The translations under genes and the position numbers were made by a program. Of a stretch of DNA of 64,000 nt, positions 17,298-23,802 are shown piece after piece. The notes under the pieces were generated by a model, which had not been told where the DNA came from, did no database searches, and saw nothing but the letters and a program-made list of their open reading frames with translations. The stretch comes from Cavenderia fasciculata (lineage: Eukaryota > Evosea > Eumycetozoa > Acytosteliales > Cavenderiaceae), in the NCBI RefSeq assembly GCF_000203815.1, contig NW_004457644.1:124001-188000 (forward strand), read 5' to 3'. The number at the start of each line of letters is the position of its first letter. Position 1 is the stretch's first letter.

Positions 17298-18262
17298 TCT
17301 TTACTTTGTTATTCTCTCTTTTTGTTGAAATAGAGATAATTATACTAGTTTGTAAATGCAAACAAACAATGACGCAAAAAAAAAATTTATTTATCTTATC
17401 TTTTATTTTTTTTTTATTTTATTTTTTGAACTTCATTCAAATATTACCATATTCATGAATAACCACTGACAATTCCCCTATTTAACACAATGTATAAAGT
17501 TAATGTATTCACCATCAAAAGAATAGTCAATGGTCTTGTATCTAAACACGAAAATTGAAACTCGAATAGCAGAAAGTTTAATTGTACATCTCAACTAATC
17601 TCAAGATCAAAGCTTCAATCGTTGCTCAGTACAAAGAATCAAGATTTATTATTAGAGTTGGTATATGTATACTATCACAACAACTTTCATAGTAAATACT
17701 TAAAGTATGTATTACATCCGATCATCATCATCATCATCAATGTACTTGTACAAATTAATTAGATTTATAGAAATTTATCATACCTTGTGAACAACTTTTC
17801 CTTTTATTCATTGGGATCTATCTATTTCTCACTGATTATACGTGCCATCTTGGTTGTGTGATACAGAAAATCTTGTATGTTAGAGAAATGTACATTTCTC
17901 CTCCCAATTAGACATATCTGAATATGGTTGATTCAATTGTCATCGCTCGAGTTGACCCAAATCCCTGTTGATATGTTAGAAAACTTTGGGGGACAGTATT
18001 CCCTCTTTCCATTATTGGTCTGAAGAAATTTGTAATGACTGATTGTTTGTCTAGTGTATCAGCAATATTCTCCCTTTAATGTATACCGCGCGGTCTATAG
18101 AGTATTGAAGGTACACTGGACAAACAATCAGTCATTCGTGCTCAATTGCACATGTGTGTCTGTCCCACCAACACCGTATAGTATACTAAACGTGACAAGC
18201 GAACCAACAACAAGCTAGCTTTGCACCAACTACACACAAATAATATTATTAATTAATTTAAT
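17298..18262. other. Long spacer upstream of MIC60
   Basis: About 965 bases without a convincing coding frame. It contains the MIC60 promoter, an ATC microsatellite near 17725-17742, and the long hairpin at 18034-18136. The small frame at 17267-17458 overlaps the MIC60 first exon and is T-rich noise. Confidence 0.5.
18034..18136. ncRNA. Long imperfect hairpin, candidate small-RNA precursor or foldback element
   Basis: The 25-base arm at 18034-18058 (AATGACTGATTGTTTGTC then TAGTGTA) pairs with 18112-18136 at every position, with one U-G wobble. After a small internal mismatch the pairing continues for about nine more pairs (CAATATTCT with AGTATTG). The loop contains the GC-rich ACCGCGCGGT. 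The stem of about 36 pairs with a loop of about 30 bases is far longer than chance. A miRNA-like or siRNA-producing hairpin, or the relic of a small inverted-repeat transposon, are the main options. The strand cannot be told from sequence. Confidence 0.5.
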
Positions 18263-18733
18263 TTATTTATTTAACCAAAGATTTATTAATACAAGAGGAA
18301 CATGAATAACAGCCAACATAATGACAGTGTATAATCTGGCATAGTCTAGTACTGCAACACGAGATGATTCTTCGAGTTCATCGATGATACCAGTATTGAA
18401 TTGTGAACGACCAGTATTAAAGTATCGTAGCAATGCACCTATATCGAATCCCCAACCAATATAGCAACTAAATAGTAGACCAAGATCTAAAAAGATCATG
18501 CCATACTTGACCGATGGGGTTTGTATAGATAGAATTGCTTCGGTTACTGGTTTGGCCAATACCCATCCTGCTACGTTTGATCCACCCAATAATGTTGCCA
18601 ATATATTTCTTCTCTTTGATGAAGAAGATCCAATTGGTCTCGGGGGTGGCGATAATGTAATCACTGATACATCCCAAAATATTGTACTTATTGATGATCC
18701 CAATAAACCATATAATATTCCTTTTAACAACAT
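18263..18733 (-). CDS. Unknown small multi-pass membrane protein
   Basis: One exon encodes 156 residues from ATG 18733. There are about four hydrophobic segments: residues 1-25 (LLKGILYGLLGSSISTIFW), one around 50-65, one around 80-105 (IFLDLGLLFSCYIGWGF), and the C-terminal MLAVIHVPLVLINLWL. A Pro/Ser-rich loop, SPPPRPIGSSSSKRR, follows the first. No known motif is seen. Codon composition is coding-like. It may be an organelle or ER membrane protein; no function is proposed. Confidence 0.65.
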   Translation of the reverse strand: MLLKGILYGLLGSSISTIFWDVSVITLSPPPRPIGSSSSKRRNILATLLGGSNVAGWVLAKPVTEAILSIQTPSVKYGMIFLDLGLLFSCYIGWGFDIGALLRYFNTGRSQFNTGIIDELEESSRVAVLDYARLYTVIMLAVIHVPLVLINLWLNK

Positions 18734-18980
18734 TATTTATCAATAGAAGTAATATTTATATATAAATACAGTATATCTATCTATTTAAATAGCTTCTATA
18801 CAAAGGTTGTTTATGATATTTCCTCACAAATAGATGCTCACCTTTTTTTCTTGTTTTTTCATCGTAGTCGAGTCACTGGTGATATTGTGATCTTAATTCT
18901 TTTCAAAGTTTACAACAAACAATTTGGGTTGGGTTGGGATTATGACAAAAAGCAACAAAGTATCTAAAGGGGTTGTTGTC

Positions 18981-19079
18981 GTTTCCTAAGAGAATTGCAC
19001 TCCTATACCTGCAATGACATACTCTTATTGCTTAGAGCATTACGAATATACAGTACATTACTAATTATGTTAAGGAAAC
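18981..19079 (+). ncRNA. Structured repeat element, copy 1 (candidate RNA gene)
   Basis: It begins GTTTCCTAAGAGAATTGCAC, continues TCCTATACC, and ends with ACATTACTAATTATG then TTAAGGAAAC. The ends can pair (GUUUCCU with AGGAAAC). The interior differs from copies 2 and 3 but holds its own small hairpin, GCAAT..ATTGC, near 19011-19031. Confidence 0.6.
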
Positions 19080-19112
19080 TTACTATACCACTTCTTTAAA
19101 TATCTTCAATGC

Positions 19113-19185
19113 ATTTCCTAAGAGATTTGCACTCCTATACCGGAAGATTTGATCTTCGGGACATTACTAATTATGTTAAGGAAAC
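19113..19185 (+). ncRNA. Structured repeat element, copy 2 (candidate RNA gene)
   Basis: This is the shortest copy, 73 bases. It has the same 5' block (TTTCCTAAGAGATTTGCACT then CCTATACC) and 3' block (GGGACATTACTAATTATG then TTAAGGAAAC). Between them is a compact hairpin: CCGGAAGAT, loop TTG, ATCTTCGGG. It is followed by TTTT, a possible RNA polymerase III stop on the plus strand. Confidence 0.6.
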
Positions 19186-19302
19186 TTTTGTTCATTATCA
19201 AAAACTAGATCAGATCAAGATATTTGGTCGTTGTGGTTCAAGTAGTATTTTTCTTATGGGATTTATCATTATTCCCTAATTTGAGATATATATATAAAAT
19301 GT

Positions 19303-19445
19303 GTTTCCTAAGAGATTTGCACTCCTATACCGATCGGGAGTGTTGAGGTTCACGATCCACAGGAAAACTGCAACTAGTTGCGATTACCTAGATCTGTGTA
19401 ACCAATCTGATTCCCCAGGGACATTACTAATTATGTTAAGGAAAC
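19303..19445 (+). ncRNA. Structured repeat element, copy 3 (candidate RNA gene)
   Basis: The ends are the same as in copy 2, but the insert is about 85 bases and folds as one long nested hairpin. The nested pairs, outside to inside, are GGGA/TCCC, GGTT/AACC, CACAG/CTGTG and GCAAC/GTTGC. A T-rich run with ten consecutive T bases starts shortly after the 3' end. A TATA-rich stretch (GATATATATATAAAATG) lies just upstream. Confidence 0.6.
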
Positions 19446-19752
19446 TTTGTTTCTTTTTTTTTTGGAAGATGTTTAAAGATACCTATGACTTGGTCCATCA
19501 AGATTTGCTCAAAATTTCTTTGTTATGGGATATTTGGGTTTGTTTGTTTGATTATTTGATTGTTTGTTTGTTTGTATGATTGATATTAAACATATAATAT
19601 ATTTATATGTTTTATTTATTGAGGTTGAATGGAATATTTATATATATTTATAATTATAAAAGAAAAAGAATAATAGTAAGATGGATTTTGGTTTGAGGGG
19701 GAGGGGAAAATTAATTAATTAAAAAAAAAAGAAGTATTGGATAAATGTTTGA

Positions 19753-20823
19753 TTATTGTTTAGCATTGCTTTGACTTTTCATTCTTGGTAATAAGGATCT
19801 TCTTTCTTGATCGGAAGATCTAGAGTGGAAGAGTTCTTTGGTTCGTTTAAGACGAGGTTGATTTCTAATAACTGATATGACATTGAGTTGTGTAAGAATG
19901 TTTTGGGCGGCCTTCCATTTGCTCTCTGGACGCAAAAGTGGAGTACTCTCTATATCAATGTCGATGGGGACGTCGTTTTGATGGATGGGTTTGACCGATT
20001 GTTGCACAGGTACAGAATCCTTGACGGGTAGACACCGCAAACAAAAGCCCCACACCAAGCCTCCCGTACCAATAATCACGCAAAACAACCATTGATAGAT
20101 ATCCAATGGACGTGTACCAAAGAATTCTCCACCAACTTCAACCAATAATATTTGAATACCAATCGTTCCAATGAAAATACCAACAAATAAATAACTTTTG
20201 TGAATATTTCTAAATACATTAAAGTCTAAAATAAAAATAAATAAAAAAAAGTAAGATTAGTAAAAGAGTTCTATATATATTATATATAAATATTTTGATA
20301 ATAATTTTTTTTTTTACCATTATTTAAAACACGACAATTAATTTCATTAAAGAATTGACAAAATACAAAGGTATTAAAGATGATGGTGTGATAGACCATT
20401 TTGTCATTGGGAGACCATTGACCTTGAGGTGGTAGATCAAAGAGGGTGGTGAGAGTGGCAGCACCATACATAATGGCAAAGAGGAATGACAATTGATAGA
20501 TGGACTGTCCAATGATATTTCTCCACATGCGTCGAGTGATGAGCTTGTCAAATCGACCATATGGTAAACGATCAAACAGTGATTCTGTAGGTGGTTCAGT
20601 TGCCAATGCCAACGCTCCCAATGTATCCATAATCAGATTAACCCACAACATTTGAATTGGTCTAAGCGGACTCTCTCCACTGGTACATGCACCTGCAAAT
20701 GCAATCACTACTGCTACTATATTTACAGTTAATTGGAATTGAATAAATTTACGAATTGAATCATATACCTAAAAAAAAATAAAAATAAAAAGAAATATAA
20801 ATATATAATTATAATTTTGTTTG

Positions 20824-20854
<31 letters not shown>

Positions 20855-23271
20855 GATTCTTTACATTTCTACCCCATAAAACAGCTTTTGAAATTGAATT
20901 AAAGTTATCATCTAATAAGACAATGTCACTAGCTTCTTTGGCAACTTCAGTACCTGCGATACCCATAGCAAATCCAACATCGGCTTCTTTGAGTTGAGGA
21001 GCATCGTTTACACCGTCACCAGTGACTGCAACCACTTCACCTAGTTGACGGAGTTTGTGGACGAGACGATACTTGTCAGTGGGAGAGCACCGAGCCATGA
21101 CTTGGAGGTGTGGTACGACAATGTCGAGTTGTTCGTCGGTCAATTGTCTAAATTGTGGACCTTCTAGTGCGACACCACCTTCCTTGAGGATACCACACTC
21201 GCGAGCAATGTTTTTGGCCGTGAGGAGATTGTCACCGGTAAGCATCTTGATTTTAATGCCTGCATGTTGGCACTTGAGGACGGCGGCGGGCACCTCGGGA
21301 CGAACGGGGTCTTTGATGCCTACGAGTGCGAGAAAGGTGAAGCCGTCCTTGTAGAGGTCTTCCTCTTTGAACTTGGCAGCGTCTCCCTTGACATCTTTGT
21401 AGGCGAGAATGAGTGTACGCAGTCCGTTGCTAGCATACACTTCAATCTCCTTGGCAATTATCATCTTTTCGTCGCGGGTAAAGTTACGTGACGACCCATC
21501 CTCATCAATCGACGCTGTACACTTTTCCAACATAATTTCACTTGCTCCTTTGGCATGGAAACGCAATCCTCCTCCTCCACTATTATTACCGCTTCCATCC
21601 TTTTTAACGAGGATACCTGACATTTTCTTTTCTGAACTGAATGGGAATGCACGGACTGCACGTGCTTTGTTGAGGTCACGGTATGTTTCATAGTCGACGT
21701 TGAGTTTGATGATAAACTCGAGTAGTGCGCATTCGGTCTTGCTGCCCTTGTGCTCGTTGACTGGTGCACGTACGACAATGTATGCTGTCGAGTTGAGACA
21801 GATCGACTCGGCTAAAAGAGAGACAATATGCTCGCTTGGACTTGCAATGTAACGACCGATGGTCGATCGCTCCACCGACATACGGTTCATTGTCAGTGTG
21901 CCAGTCTTGTCCGAGCAGATTGTTGTCGCTCCACCCATCGTCTCGCAAGCTTCCAAGTGACGCACCAGGTTGTTGTCTCGCATCATCTTGATCATCGAGT
22001 AGGCCAACGAGATGGTGACTGCCAACGGCAATCCCTCGGGCACAGCAAGCACAATAATTGCAATCGCCGTCACCAAGTAGCCCATGATCGTTCCCAACTC
22101 GCTCCAAGCCCACACGCGGTGCTCCGTCTTGAACACAACAATGTACTTTATGATCAGTACCAAAAACGTCAGTATCGCTGCAGCCAGACCAAACTTGCCA
22201 ATCAGCTGTGCAAGATTCTCTAGTTTCTCGGTCAGTGGTGTGTCGCTGCTTGGCGCCGACAGCAAACTCTTGAGTTTTCCCCACTGCGAATGGTCTCCAA
22301 CTGCAGCCACCAGATACGTGCATCTTCCCTCCAACACTTGACATCCAGACAACATAAATGGTTCCTCCTTTTCAGATTTTGATTTTTGATCAGATTCTCC
22401 AGTCATTGAACTTTCATCAACTGCAAAGTCTAAAAATAAATAAATAAATAAATAAATATATTAATATTCAAATTTACAAAGATTACATTTATGTTTGTTA
22501 TTGATTATACATACTAGCACCATTAATAAAGAAACCATCAGCTGGGATAGTATCACCAGCTTCCAATTGAACGACATCACCGACTACGATATCAGTGGTT
22601 GGAACAGAGGTGATACGACCGTCACGCATGACTGATGCATTTCGTTCGTTTCTGATAGAGTTTAGTTTTCTAAACTTTTGTTCCTTGTTGTAGTCATTAC
22701 CAGCGGTGACCATGACGACAATGACTACGGCAAAGAGGATAGCTGTGCCATCGATCCAACCAGTTGATCGATCTTCAACAGTCAAACCGAGTACGATAGA
22801 GATGATGGCAGCAACCATCAGAATGATCAATGTCTTGTCGTGAGCAGCCTCCCAGATAAAAAAGAGCAGTGACTTGGGTGCCACCTCTGCAGTTCTATTC
22901 TCACCATACGAATCGATTCTAGCTTTACTAGTAGCCTCTGCACTCGTCAATCCTTGATCTACATTACTCTTTAACATCTCTGCAACACCTCTTACACCTC
23001 CATATTGGTGTTCCAATCCATCAACATTTTCGTTTGATATCAAATTTGCTAAATCATCTCTTGTAACTCTATTATTACTACTACTACTACCTCTATGAAC
23101 TAATCCATTATTATTATTATTATTATTAATATTATTATTAATACTATTTGATTGATAGTATTCTTGTTGTTGTTGTTGTTGAGGTGACAATGAATTATTA
23201 TTATCGTTGATTAAATTCTTTTTTCCATCATCGTCGTCATCTGATTTATTTTTTTTGTGAAAGAAGTTCAT
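19753..23271 (-). CDS. Plasma-membrane-type Ca2+-transporting P-type ATPase (PMCA family)
   Basis: Four exons, 22515-23271, 20865-22429, 20318-20768 and 19753-20225, join in frame to 1081 residues. Visible family marks are the actuator loop (GDTIPADGFFINGA, completed across intron 1 as DESSMTGES) and PEGLPLA in TM4 near residue 383. The phosphorylation site DKTGT has its Asp near residue 426, and the hinge reads TGDGVNDAPQLKEADVG. The TM8-10 exon ends with WGFCLRCLP. The C-terminal tail has WKAAQNILTQLNVISVIRNQ, which aligns with the PMCA calmodulin-binding helix. The N-terminus is Asn/Gln-rich. D. discoideum PatA of the contractile vacuole is the obvious relative. The pump expels or sequesters Ca2+ in exchange for protons. 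Which membrane it uses here is not known. Confidence 0.93.
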
Positions 23272-23802
23272 AATTTAATTAAATTAAAATTTTAATTAAT
23301 TATTTCTCTCTATCACTTTATATATATATCTATATCTCCAAACTATATACTCTCTTCTATTACTATTTATATTATTATGATTGATTGATTAATCTGTTCT
23401 GACTATCAAAGAGATAATAATTATTTGATTTATTGAATTATCTACTCTCTCACTCACTCATTCATTGTGAAGTAAAACTCTGATTACAAATTTATTGGTC
23501 TAAAATAAAAACATACCTCAGGTATGCTCATCCAATGATATATATCCATTTAAATTTAAATTAAATTAAATTTTATTATTTTTATGTATAAACCAATCTA
23601 CTTTTGGTGAACTATTTATGTACAGACAGCACTTCCCAAAAAGAAGGTGTGGTCTCCAAAAAGGCATATCATGCTATTTACACACACCCCAACCATCAAT
23701 CGATTTTTGTGTGAACAGCTCGTTCATTCATTATTGTGTGTTTGCATATATTGTACAGATAATTATATTTATTTATTTATTTATTTAATTTAATTGTTTA
23801 AT
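23272..23802. other. Spacer between the Ca2+ pump and the LRR-EGF receptor gene
   Basis: Both neighbours are on the minus strand, so this holds the pump promoter and the 3' flank of the receptor gene. It is AT-rich with a TTTA microsatellite near 23765-23785. Nothing else is recognised. Confidence 0.5.

Follow-up and report, generated by a model that had tools for sequence, protein, structure and literature searches.

Several described RNAs resemble the locus reported here in part. In bacteria, tmRNA and the Y-RNA YrlA illustrate how a tRNA-like domain can carry a large insert in place of its anticodon arm, or how a tRNA-like module can be built into another RNA, while in trypanosomes the signal recognition particle contains a tRNA-like RNA, sRNA-85, which we also considered as a comparison. 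In dictyostelids, class I RNAs are described as carrying an 11-nt motif, with about 60 nt as their median length and with a DUSE, a Dictyostelium promoter box, near 60 nt (PMC7919456), and Sucgang et al. place a DUSE about 63 bp upstream of many noncoding RNAs (PMC3188802). Vault RNAs are a further point of comparison, although the list of validated vault RNAs given in a 2020 review names no dictyostelid (PMC7058938).

Here, we analyzed a 64,000-nt stretch of Cavenderia fasciculata DNA (contig NW_004457644.1, positions 124,001 to 188,000; hereafter the window), in which three tandem elements had been noticed. We propose, with a probability of roughly 60%, that they form a three-gene cluster of minus-strand tRNA-like noncoding RNAs, DUSE-driven and probably transcribed by RNA polymerase III (Pol III), in which variable inserts replace the anticodon arm.

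Three Tandem Elements with Fixed Ends and Free Middles

The three elements are real. Alignment confirms the three tandem copies with fixed ends described in the initial annotation, whose coordinates match the paired ends (Table 1). The block ACATTACTAATTATG plus TTAAGGAAAC is identical across all three copies. In the second shared block, copies 2 and 3 agree throughout and copy 1 has one change (AATTGC for ATTTGC). Copy 2 begins with ATTTCC, copies 1 and 3 with GTTTCC, so that the fixed ends show two single-base differences in total among the three copies. On the minus strand, GTTTCCTTAACATAATTAGTAATGT is the 5' end and GGTATAGGAGTGCAAATCTCTTAGGAAAC the 3' end common to all copies. The inserts were said to have no sequence in common, which holds: the middles of 47, 21, and 91 nt in copies 1, 2, and 3 share nothing (lengths counted on the minus strand, from the first block up to the TATAGG of the second, with two shared G included).

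How often these sequences occur was determined in several ways. A 24-mer of one block, with up to three mismatches, was found at three places in the 30,995,898-base genome, all of them at the locus, while the reversed control gave none. The 18-mer TGCAAATCTCTTAGGAAA, again with up to three mismatches, occurs at 36 places vs. 47 for its reversed control; since it is no commoner than the control, only its three places at the locus stand out. When copies 2 and 3 were used as DNA queries against the genome, they matched at their own locus only, these counts being lower bounds, and exact 23-mer scans of viral and prokaryote collections gave no match. An element model built from the three copies (R1) recovered, in a search of the window, the three copies and two weak sites with E values of 0.56 and 2.8. 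The cores are too alike to show any covariation among copies.

Table 1. Positions of the elements, their putative transcription signals, and neighboring features in the window
Feature	Position	Strand	Remarks
Hairpin	18034..18136		38-nt arms, 87% complementary, 27 nt between
Reading frame	18263..18736	-	No Pfam match
T5 run	18947..18951	-	30 nt past copy 1; might terminate a transcript joining copies 2 and 1
Copy 1	18981..19079	-	99 nt; tRNA-like core (acceptor, D, and T arms); 47-nt middle replaces anticodon arm; without a DUSE of its own
Copy 2	19113..19185	-	73 nt; tRNA-like core; 21-nt hairpin replaces anticodon arm; called tRNA-Leu(caa) by ARAGORN at 19111-19185
DUSE box ATCCCATAA	19254..19262	-	68 nt before copy 2 5' end
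T4 run	19296..19299	-	Directly follows copy 3; candidate Pol III terminator (5.8% of intergenic places are expected to have a T4 within 10 nt)
Copy 3	19303..19445	-	143 nt; tRNA-like core; 91-nt middle replaces anticodon arm
DUSE box ATCCCATAA	19523..19531	-	77 nt before copy 3 5' end
P-type cation-transporting ATPase gene	19753..23274	-	Several pieces; elements lie downstream of its 3' end

The Fixed Ends Have tRNA-Type Anatomy on the Minus Strand

Read on the minus strand, the shared ends make up an acceptor of 7 bp, a D-stem of 4 bp with an 8-nt loop, and a T-stem of 5 bp with a 7-nt loop. Pairing is complete on this strand (acceptor 7/7, D-stem 4/4, T-stem 5/5), in contrast to the plus strand, where the same stems reach 7/7, 2/4, and 3/5. 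Across the three copies, all 48 cells defined by the 16 core pairs are paired. We then scored both strands against a list of 15 canonical tRNA positions, of which 13 are matched on the minus strand (U8, A14, R15, G19, A21, Y48, G53, U54, C56, R57, A58, Y60, and C61) vs. 2 on the plus strand. The two misses are A18 and G55, with G19 and C56 kept; G18 and U55 are invariant in 12 aligned tRNAs of this genome. Among 200,000 shuffles with the acceptor fixed, both full stems arose in 128, at least 13 positions in 1, and both together in none. The core differences between copies fall at position 59, which is variable among real tRNAs, and at position 72, where G-C becomes G-U. The G-U pairs, G50-U64 in every copy and G1-U72 in copy 2, are standard when the minus strand is read and would become A-C mismatches on the plus strand.

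The elements thus share with nuclear tRNAs the lengths of the acceptor, D, and T arms as well as the 13 positions above, but they differ by A18 and G55, by 21 to 91 nt in place of the anticodon arm, by their DUSE boxes, and by the absence of an Rfam match. No copy has an anticodon arm of 5 bp with a 7-nt loop. Copy 2 approximates one with a C-C mismatch, and its loop contains U33 and A37 in the ARAGORN drawing, while the middle of copy 1 closes on the minus strand with five pairs at the place of the anticodon stem, one of them U-G.

In the whole window, ARAGORN made a single tRNA call, which is copy 2 on the minus strand, and it made none in Markov sequences (60 × 64 kb plus 4000 × 1 kb); with introns of up to 200 nt allowed, copy 2 was called alone, without copies 1 and 3. 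A covariance model built from 12 tRNAs of the same genome likewise ranked copy 2 top in the window, with 21.6 bits and a rough E value of 2e-4 (next site 11.5 bits, E equally rough at 0.33), and gave partial matches of 4.0 to 5.1 bits to copies 1 and 3. At gathering level, Rfam has no match in the whole window. In 18900-19600, with E up to 10, neither the tRNA nor the vault model matches, and the single match is to a snoRNA family (22.2 bits vs. a threshold of 60). Across the genome, 63 of 1670 candidates were scored with the Rfam tRNA model, and the elements' absence from that list is therefore uninformative. Conversely, the element model found none of 20 real tRNA loci. Since Rfam misses the elements, copies 1 and 3 score weakly with the tRNA model, and the element model misses the tRNA loci, we consider the elements to be tRNA-like rather than tRNAs. 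As this case shows, a tRNA-like gene that Rfam does not report can lie hidden on the strand opposite to that on which a spaced repeat is read.

In folding without constraints, the minimum-energy fold of the minus strand is a full cloverleaf in copy 2 only, the plus strand of this copy being similarly branched; copy 1 folds on the minus strand without D and T arms, and copy 3 with the D arm and without the T arm. Fold z-scores for the whole copies 1, 2, and 3 are -1.94, -2.06, and -1.40 on the minus strand and -1.57, -1.50, and -2.68 on the plus strand. The earlier statement that each insert folds into its own hairpin finds moderate support, with shuffles at least as stable in 19, 20, and 92 of 500 cases on the minus strand and in 155, 21, and 41 of 500 on the plus strand (copies 1, 2, and 3). 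The four nested pairs listed for copy 3 (GGGA/TCCC, GGTT/AACC, CACAG/CTGTG, and GCAAC/GTTGC) are present as letters.

DUSE Boxes Upstream of Two Copies Point to the Minus Strand

Perfect matches to the DUSE pattern, A[AT]CCCA[TC]AA, lie upstream of copies 2 and 3 on the minus strand (Table 1), and copy 1 has none of its own. Such matches number 5 in the 127,982 strand positions of the window on both strands, which at this density corresponds to an expectation of ~0.0016 for a perfect DUSE in a given 41-nt range. On the plus strand, the best matches within 150 nt upstream of copies 1, 2, and 3 have 7, 6, and 7 of the 9 letters. For U2 genes of the same genome, a DUSE is found 53 nt upstream in two of seven and is absent in five; for U6, it lies 58 nt before the single match above cut-off, while a second, subthreshold match has none. 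The DUSE spacing of the elements exceeds that of U2 and U6 by 10 to 24 nt.

The snRNA genes examined for this comparison have two further peculiarities. The five DUSE-less U2 genes (among L014-L020; none in the 120 nt upstream) have instead the sequence TATAAATA some 50 to 60 nt upstream. A partial U6 copy below cut-off (G000:C12:1214667-1214764, L055), ~3 kb from the full U6 gene, has kept the U6 3' part and has a different 5' part.

As for internal promoter elements, the A box matches 10 of 12 letters at tRNA positions 8 to 19, a score equaled in 6.9% of random 20-start stretches, and the B box is weak (7/11), with U55 missing. A weak B box without U55 would suit a gene relying on a DUSE instead.

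T runs on the minus strand follow copies 3 and 1 (Table 1), and none occurs within 80 nt after copy 2. The initial annotation had pointed to T runs behind copies 2 and 3; these are present on the plus strand and are as good as the minus ones or better. With T runs on both strands, terminators do not decide between them. In favor of the plus strand are its T runs and the stable fold of copy 3. The tRNA-type anatomy lies on the minus strand, however, and both DUSE boxes are oriented for it, so the RNA strand is probably the minus strand, opposite to the one first chosen. The view that paired fixed ends around a free middle denote a structured RNA is supported as probable, with DUSE boxes nearby.

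A Proposed Cluster of tRNA-Like RNAs

The conserved core, the tRNA geometry and positions, the strand asymmetry, and the DUSE boxes are evident in the sequence itself. In the model that we favor, the minus strand would be transcribed from the DUSE promoters, probably by Pol III, with copy 3 transcribed alone and copy 2 either alone or jointly with copy 1. Transcription from copy 2 may continue into copy 1, since the minus strand has no T run between the two and a T5 run lies 30 nt past copy 1. A start 53 to 58 nt after the DUSE would leave a 5' leader of 10 to 15 nt in copy 2 and of 19 to 24 nt in copy 3, resembling that of a pre-tRNA, and a leader before the acceptor stem suggests trimming by tRNA-processing enzymes such as RNase P. 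The fixed ends would then fold into acceptor, D, and T arms around a middle that varies in sequence and length from copy to copy. A core that hardly changes next to free middles suggests a common core-binding partner and separate roles for the arms: one protein may grip all the RNAs by the constant tRNA-shaped core, and each RNA may find its own target or partner through its variable arm. Recent gene conversion could also account for the near-identity of the ends.

The elements are probably not used for decoding, since a normal anticodon arm is missing from copies 1 and 3 and the elbow contact 18-55 is replaced at both partners (A18 and G55). Their function would probably be other than translation. 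A constant tRNA-shaped core with a free arm, expressed from an snRNA-type promoter, would be an unfamiliar kind of noncoding RNA; in the titles and abstract openings of the open-licence papers listed as matches, no such tRNA-scaffold RNAs are described, and no such paper was found on tRNA-like RNAs of dictyostelids. tmRNA and YrlA differ in being bacterial, and the elements have no Rfam match. We also entertain, tentatively and with the odds clearly against it, the wider idea of a eukaryotic nuclear family of tRNA-scaffold RNAs with a fixed acceptor-D-T core and an interchangeable arm, which could correspond to the vault RNAs missing from dictyostelids, with TEP1 as the binding protein. If true, this would link vaults to a tRNA-shaped RNA.

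Alternative Explanations

The elements could be decayed tRNA genes with a disrupted anticodon region and lost function, which we consider improbable. Decay would be in keeping with tRNA features in elements on two of which (copies 1 and 3) tRNA models fail, with A18 and G55, which break the canonical elbow, and with the arms not formed when copies 1 and 3 fold freely. However, decay should strike core and middle alike, yet the cores differ at two positions and the middles share nothing, although recent gene conversion is a possible alternative cause of the near-identical ends. Moreover, both core changes obey tRNA rules, perfect DUSE boxes lie upstream of two copies, and the 20 tRNA loci searched with the element model yielded no parent.

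Equally improbable in our judgment, though attractive, is that the elements are this amoeba's vault RNAs, that is Pol III transcripts with tRNA-type boxes A and B in pairing ends and a variable center, which would be bound by TEP1 and carried by vaults. Y RNAs share much of the vault RNA layout, which is therefore unspecific. The elements are like the vault RNAs of vertebrates and Trypanosoma in their clustered genes, in conserved ends that pair and contain a box A and a weak box B, in a variable middle, and in combining upstream and internal promoter parts, but they differ in that neither sequence nor model matches. Rfam gives no match at gathering level, its vault model gives none when E values up to 10 are admitted, and the B box is weak (7/11, vs. 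10/12 for the A box). The layout is nonetheless similar, as described for vault RNAs with internal boxes A and B, upstream elements, paired ends, a variable central domain, and three human genes at one locus (PMC7058938), and descriptions in further papers likewise match this layout (PMC13100048, PMC12547018, PMC7904556, PMC550661, and PMC7916137). A TEP1-like gene, for the putative partner, is present in the genome. In the sections that we cite of a Dictyostelium vault study, a TEP1 orthologue is reported and vault RNA is mentioned in the introduction and references alone (PMC13100048). Should the elements be the dictyostelid vault RNA, the role of the RNA in vaults would become testable in amoebae.

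The TEP1-like gene itself (G000:C14:1330371-1331483; reading frame L059 1985-8581, minus) has a TROVE domain, many WD40 repeats, and a TEP1 beta-propeller match.

The initial annotation had likened the layout to that of class I RNAs on the plus strand. Some properties agree, namely the paired ends, the variable middle, the plus-strand T runs behind copies 2 and 3, and the plus-strand fold of copy 3, whose stability stands out most against shuffles (z -2.68); class I RNAs too have paired ends and a variable loop (PMC7919456). We nevertheless regard plus-strand class I-like RNAs as very unlikely, because of the tRNA-type anatomy on the minus strand and the orientation of the DUSE boxes. No DUSE lies ~60 nt upstream on the plus strand, whereas two of the three copies have one on the minus strand, at 68 and 77 nt. 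On the plus strand, wobble pairs turn into mismatches and 2 of the 15 tRNA positions are matched. The class I motif had already been noted as absent, and indeed CTTACAG and TTACAGC occur in no element on either strand, the variable group 1 form of the motif lying outside the pattern used. The elements were also correctly described as longer (99, 73, and 143 nt vs. a median of about 60 nt). They share with class I RNAs the DUSE promoter type, paired ends, and a variable middle but lack the 11-nt motif, the AAG start, and the CUGU end, and they have a tRNA-like core. Class I identity was therefore rejected, on the absence of the motif core, the greater length, and the tRNA-like core.

Slightly less likely still are functional tRNA genes, with copy 2 as a Leu(CAA) tRNA and copies 1 and 3 carrying introns in the anticodon loop. 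ARAGORN does call copy 2 Leu(caa), and U33 and A37 are present in its loop. However, cytosolic Leu tRNA has a long variable arm, which copy 2 lacks, ARAGORN still finds copy 2 alone when introns of up to 200 nt are allowed, the elements score below the Rfam threshold, and the invariant U55 and G18 are replaced by G and A.

Least plausible of all are mobile-element ends with captured inserts, for although the short inverted ends GTTTCCT/AGGAAAC would fit, no further copy was found in 31 Mb, giving no sign of the multicopy transposon against which the initial annotation had cautioned, no target-site duplication is visible by eye, and the tRNA anatomy and DUSE boxes would be left unexplained.

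Genomic Neighborhood

The elements of the proposed tRNA-like cluster lie within the ~1 kb that separates a minus-strand reading frame from the 3' end of the minus-strand P-type ATPase gene (Table 1). Beyond that reading frame lies a hairpin, with the 18030-18140 region folding at -54 kcal/mol on the plus strand (z -11.7; z -7.0 on the minus strand) and none of 200 shuffles being as stable on either strand. This hairpin is a candidate microRNA precursor or other inverted repeat.
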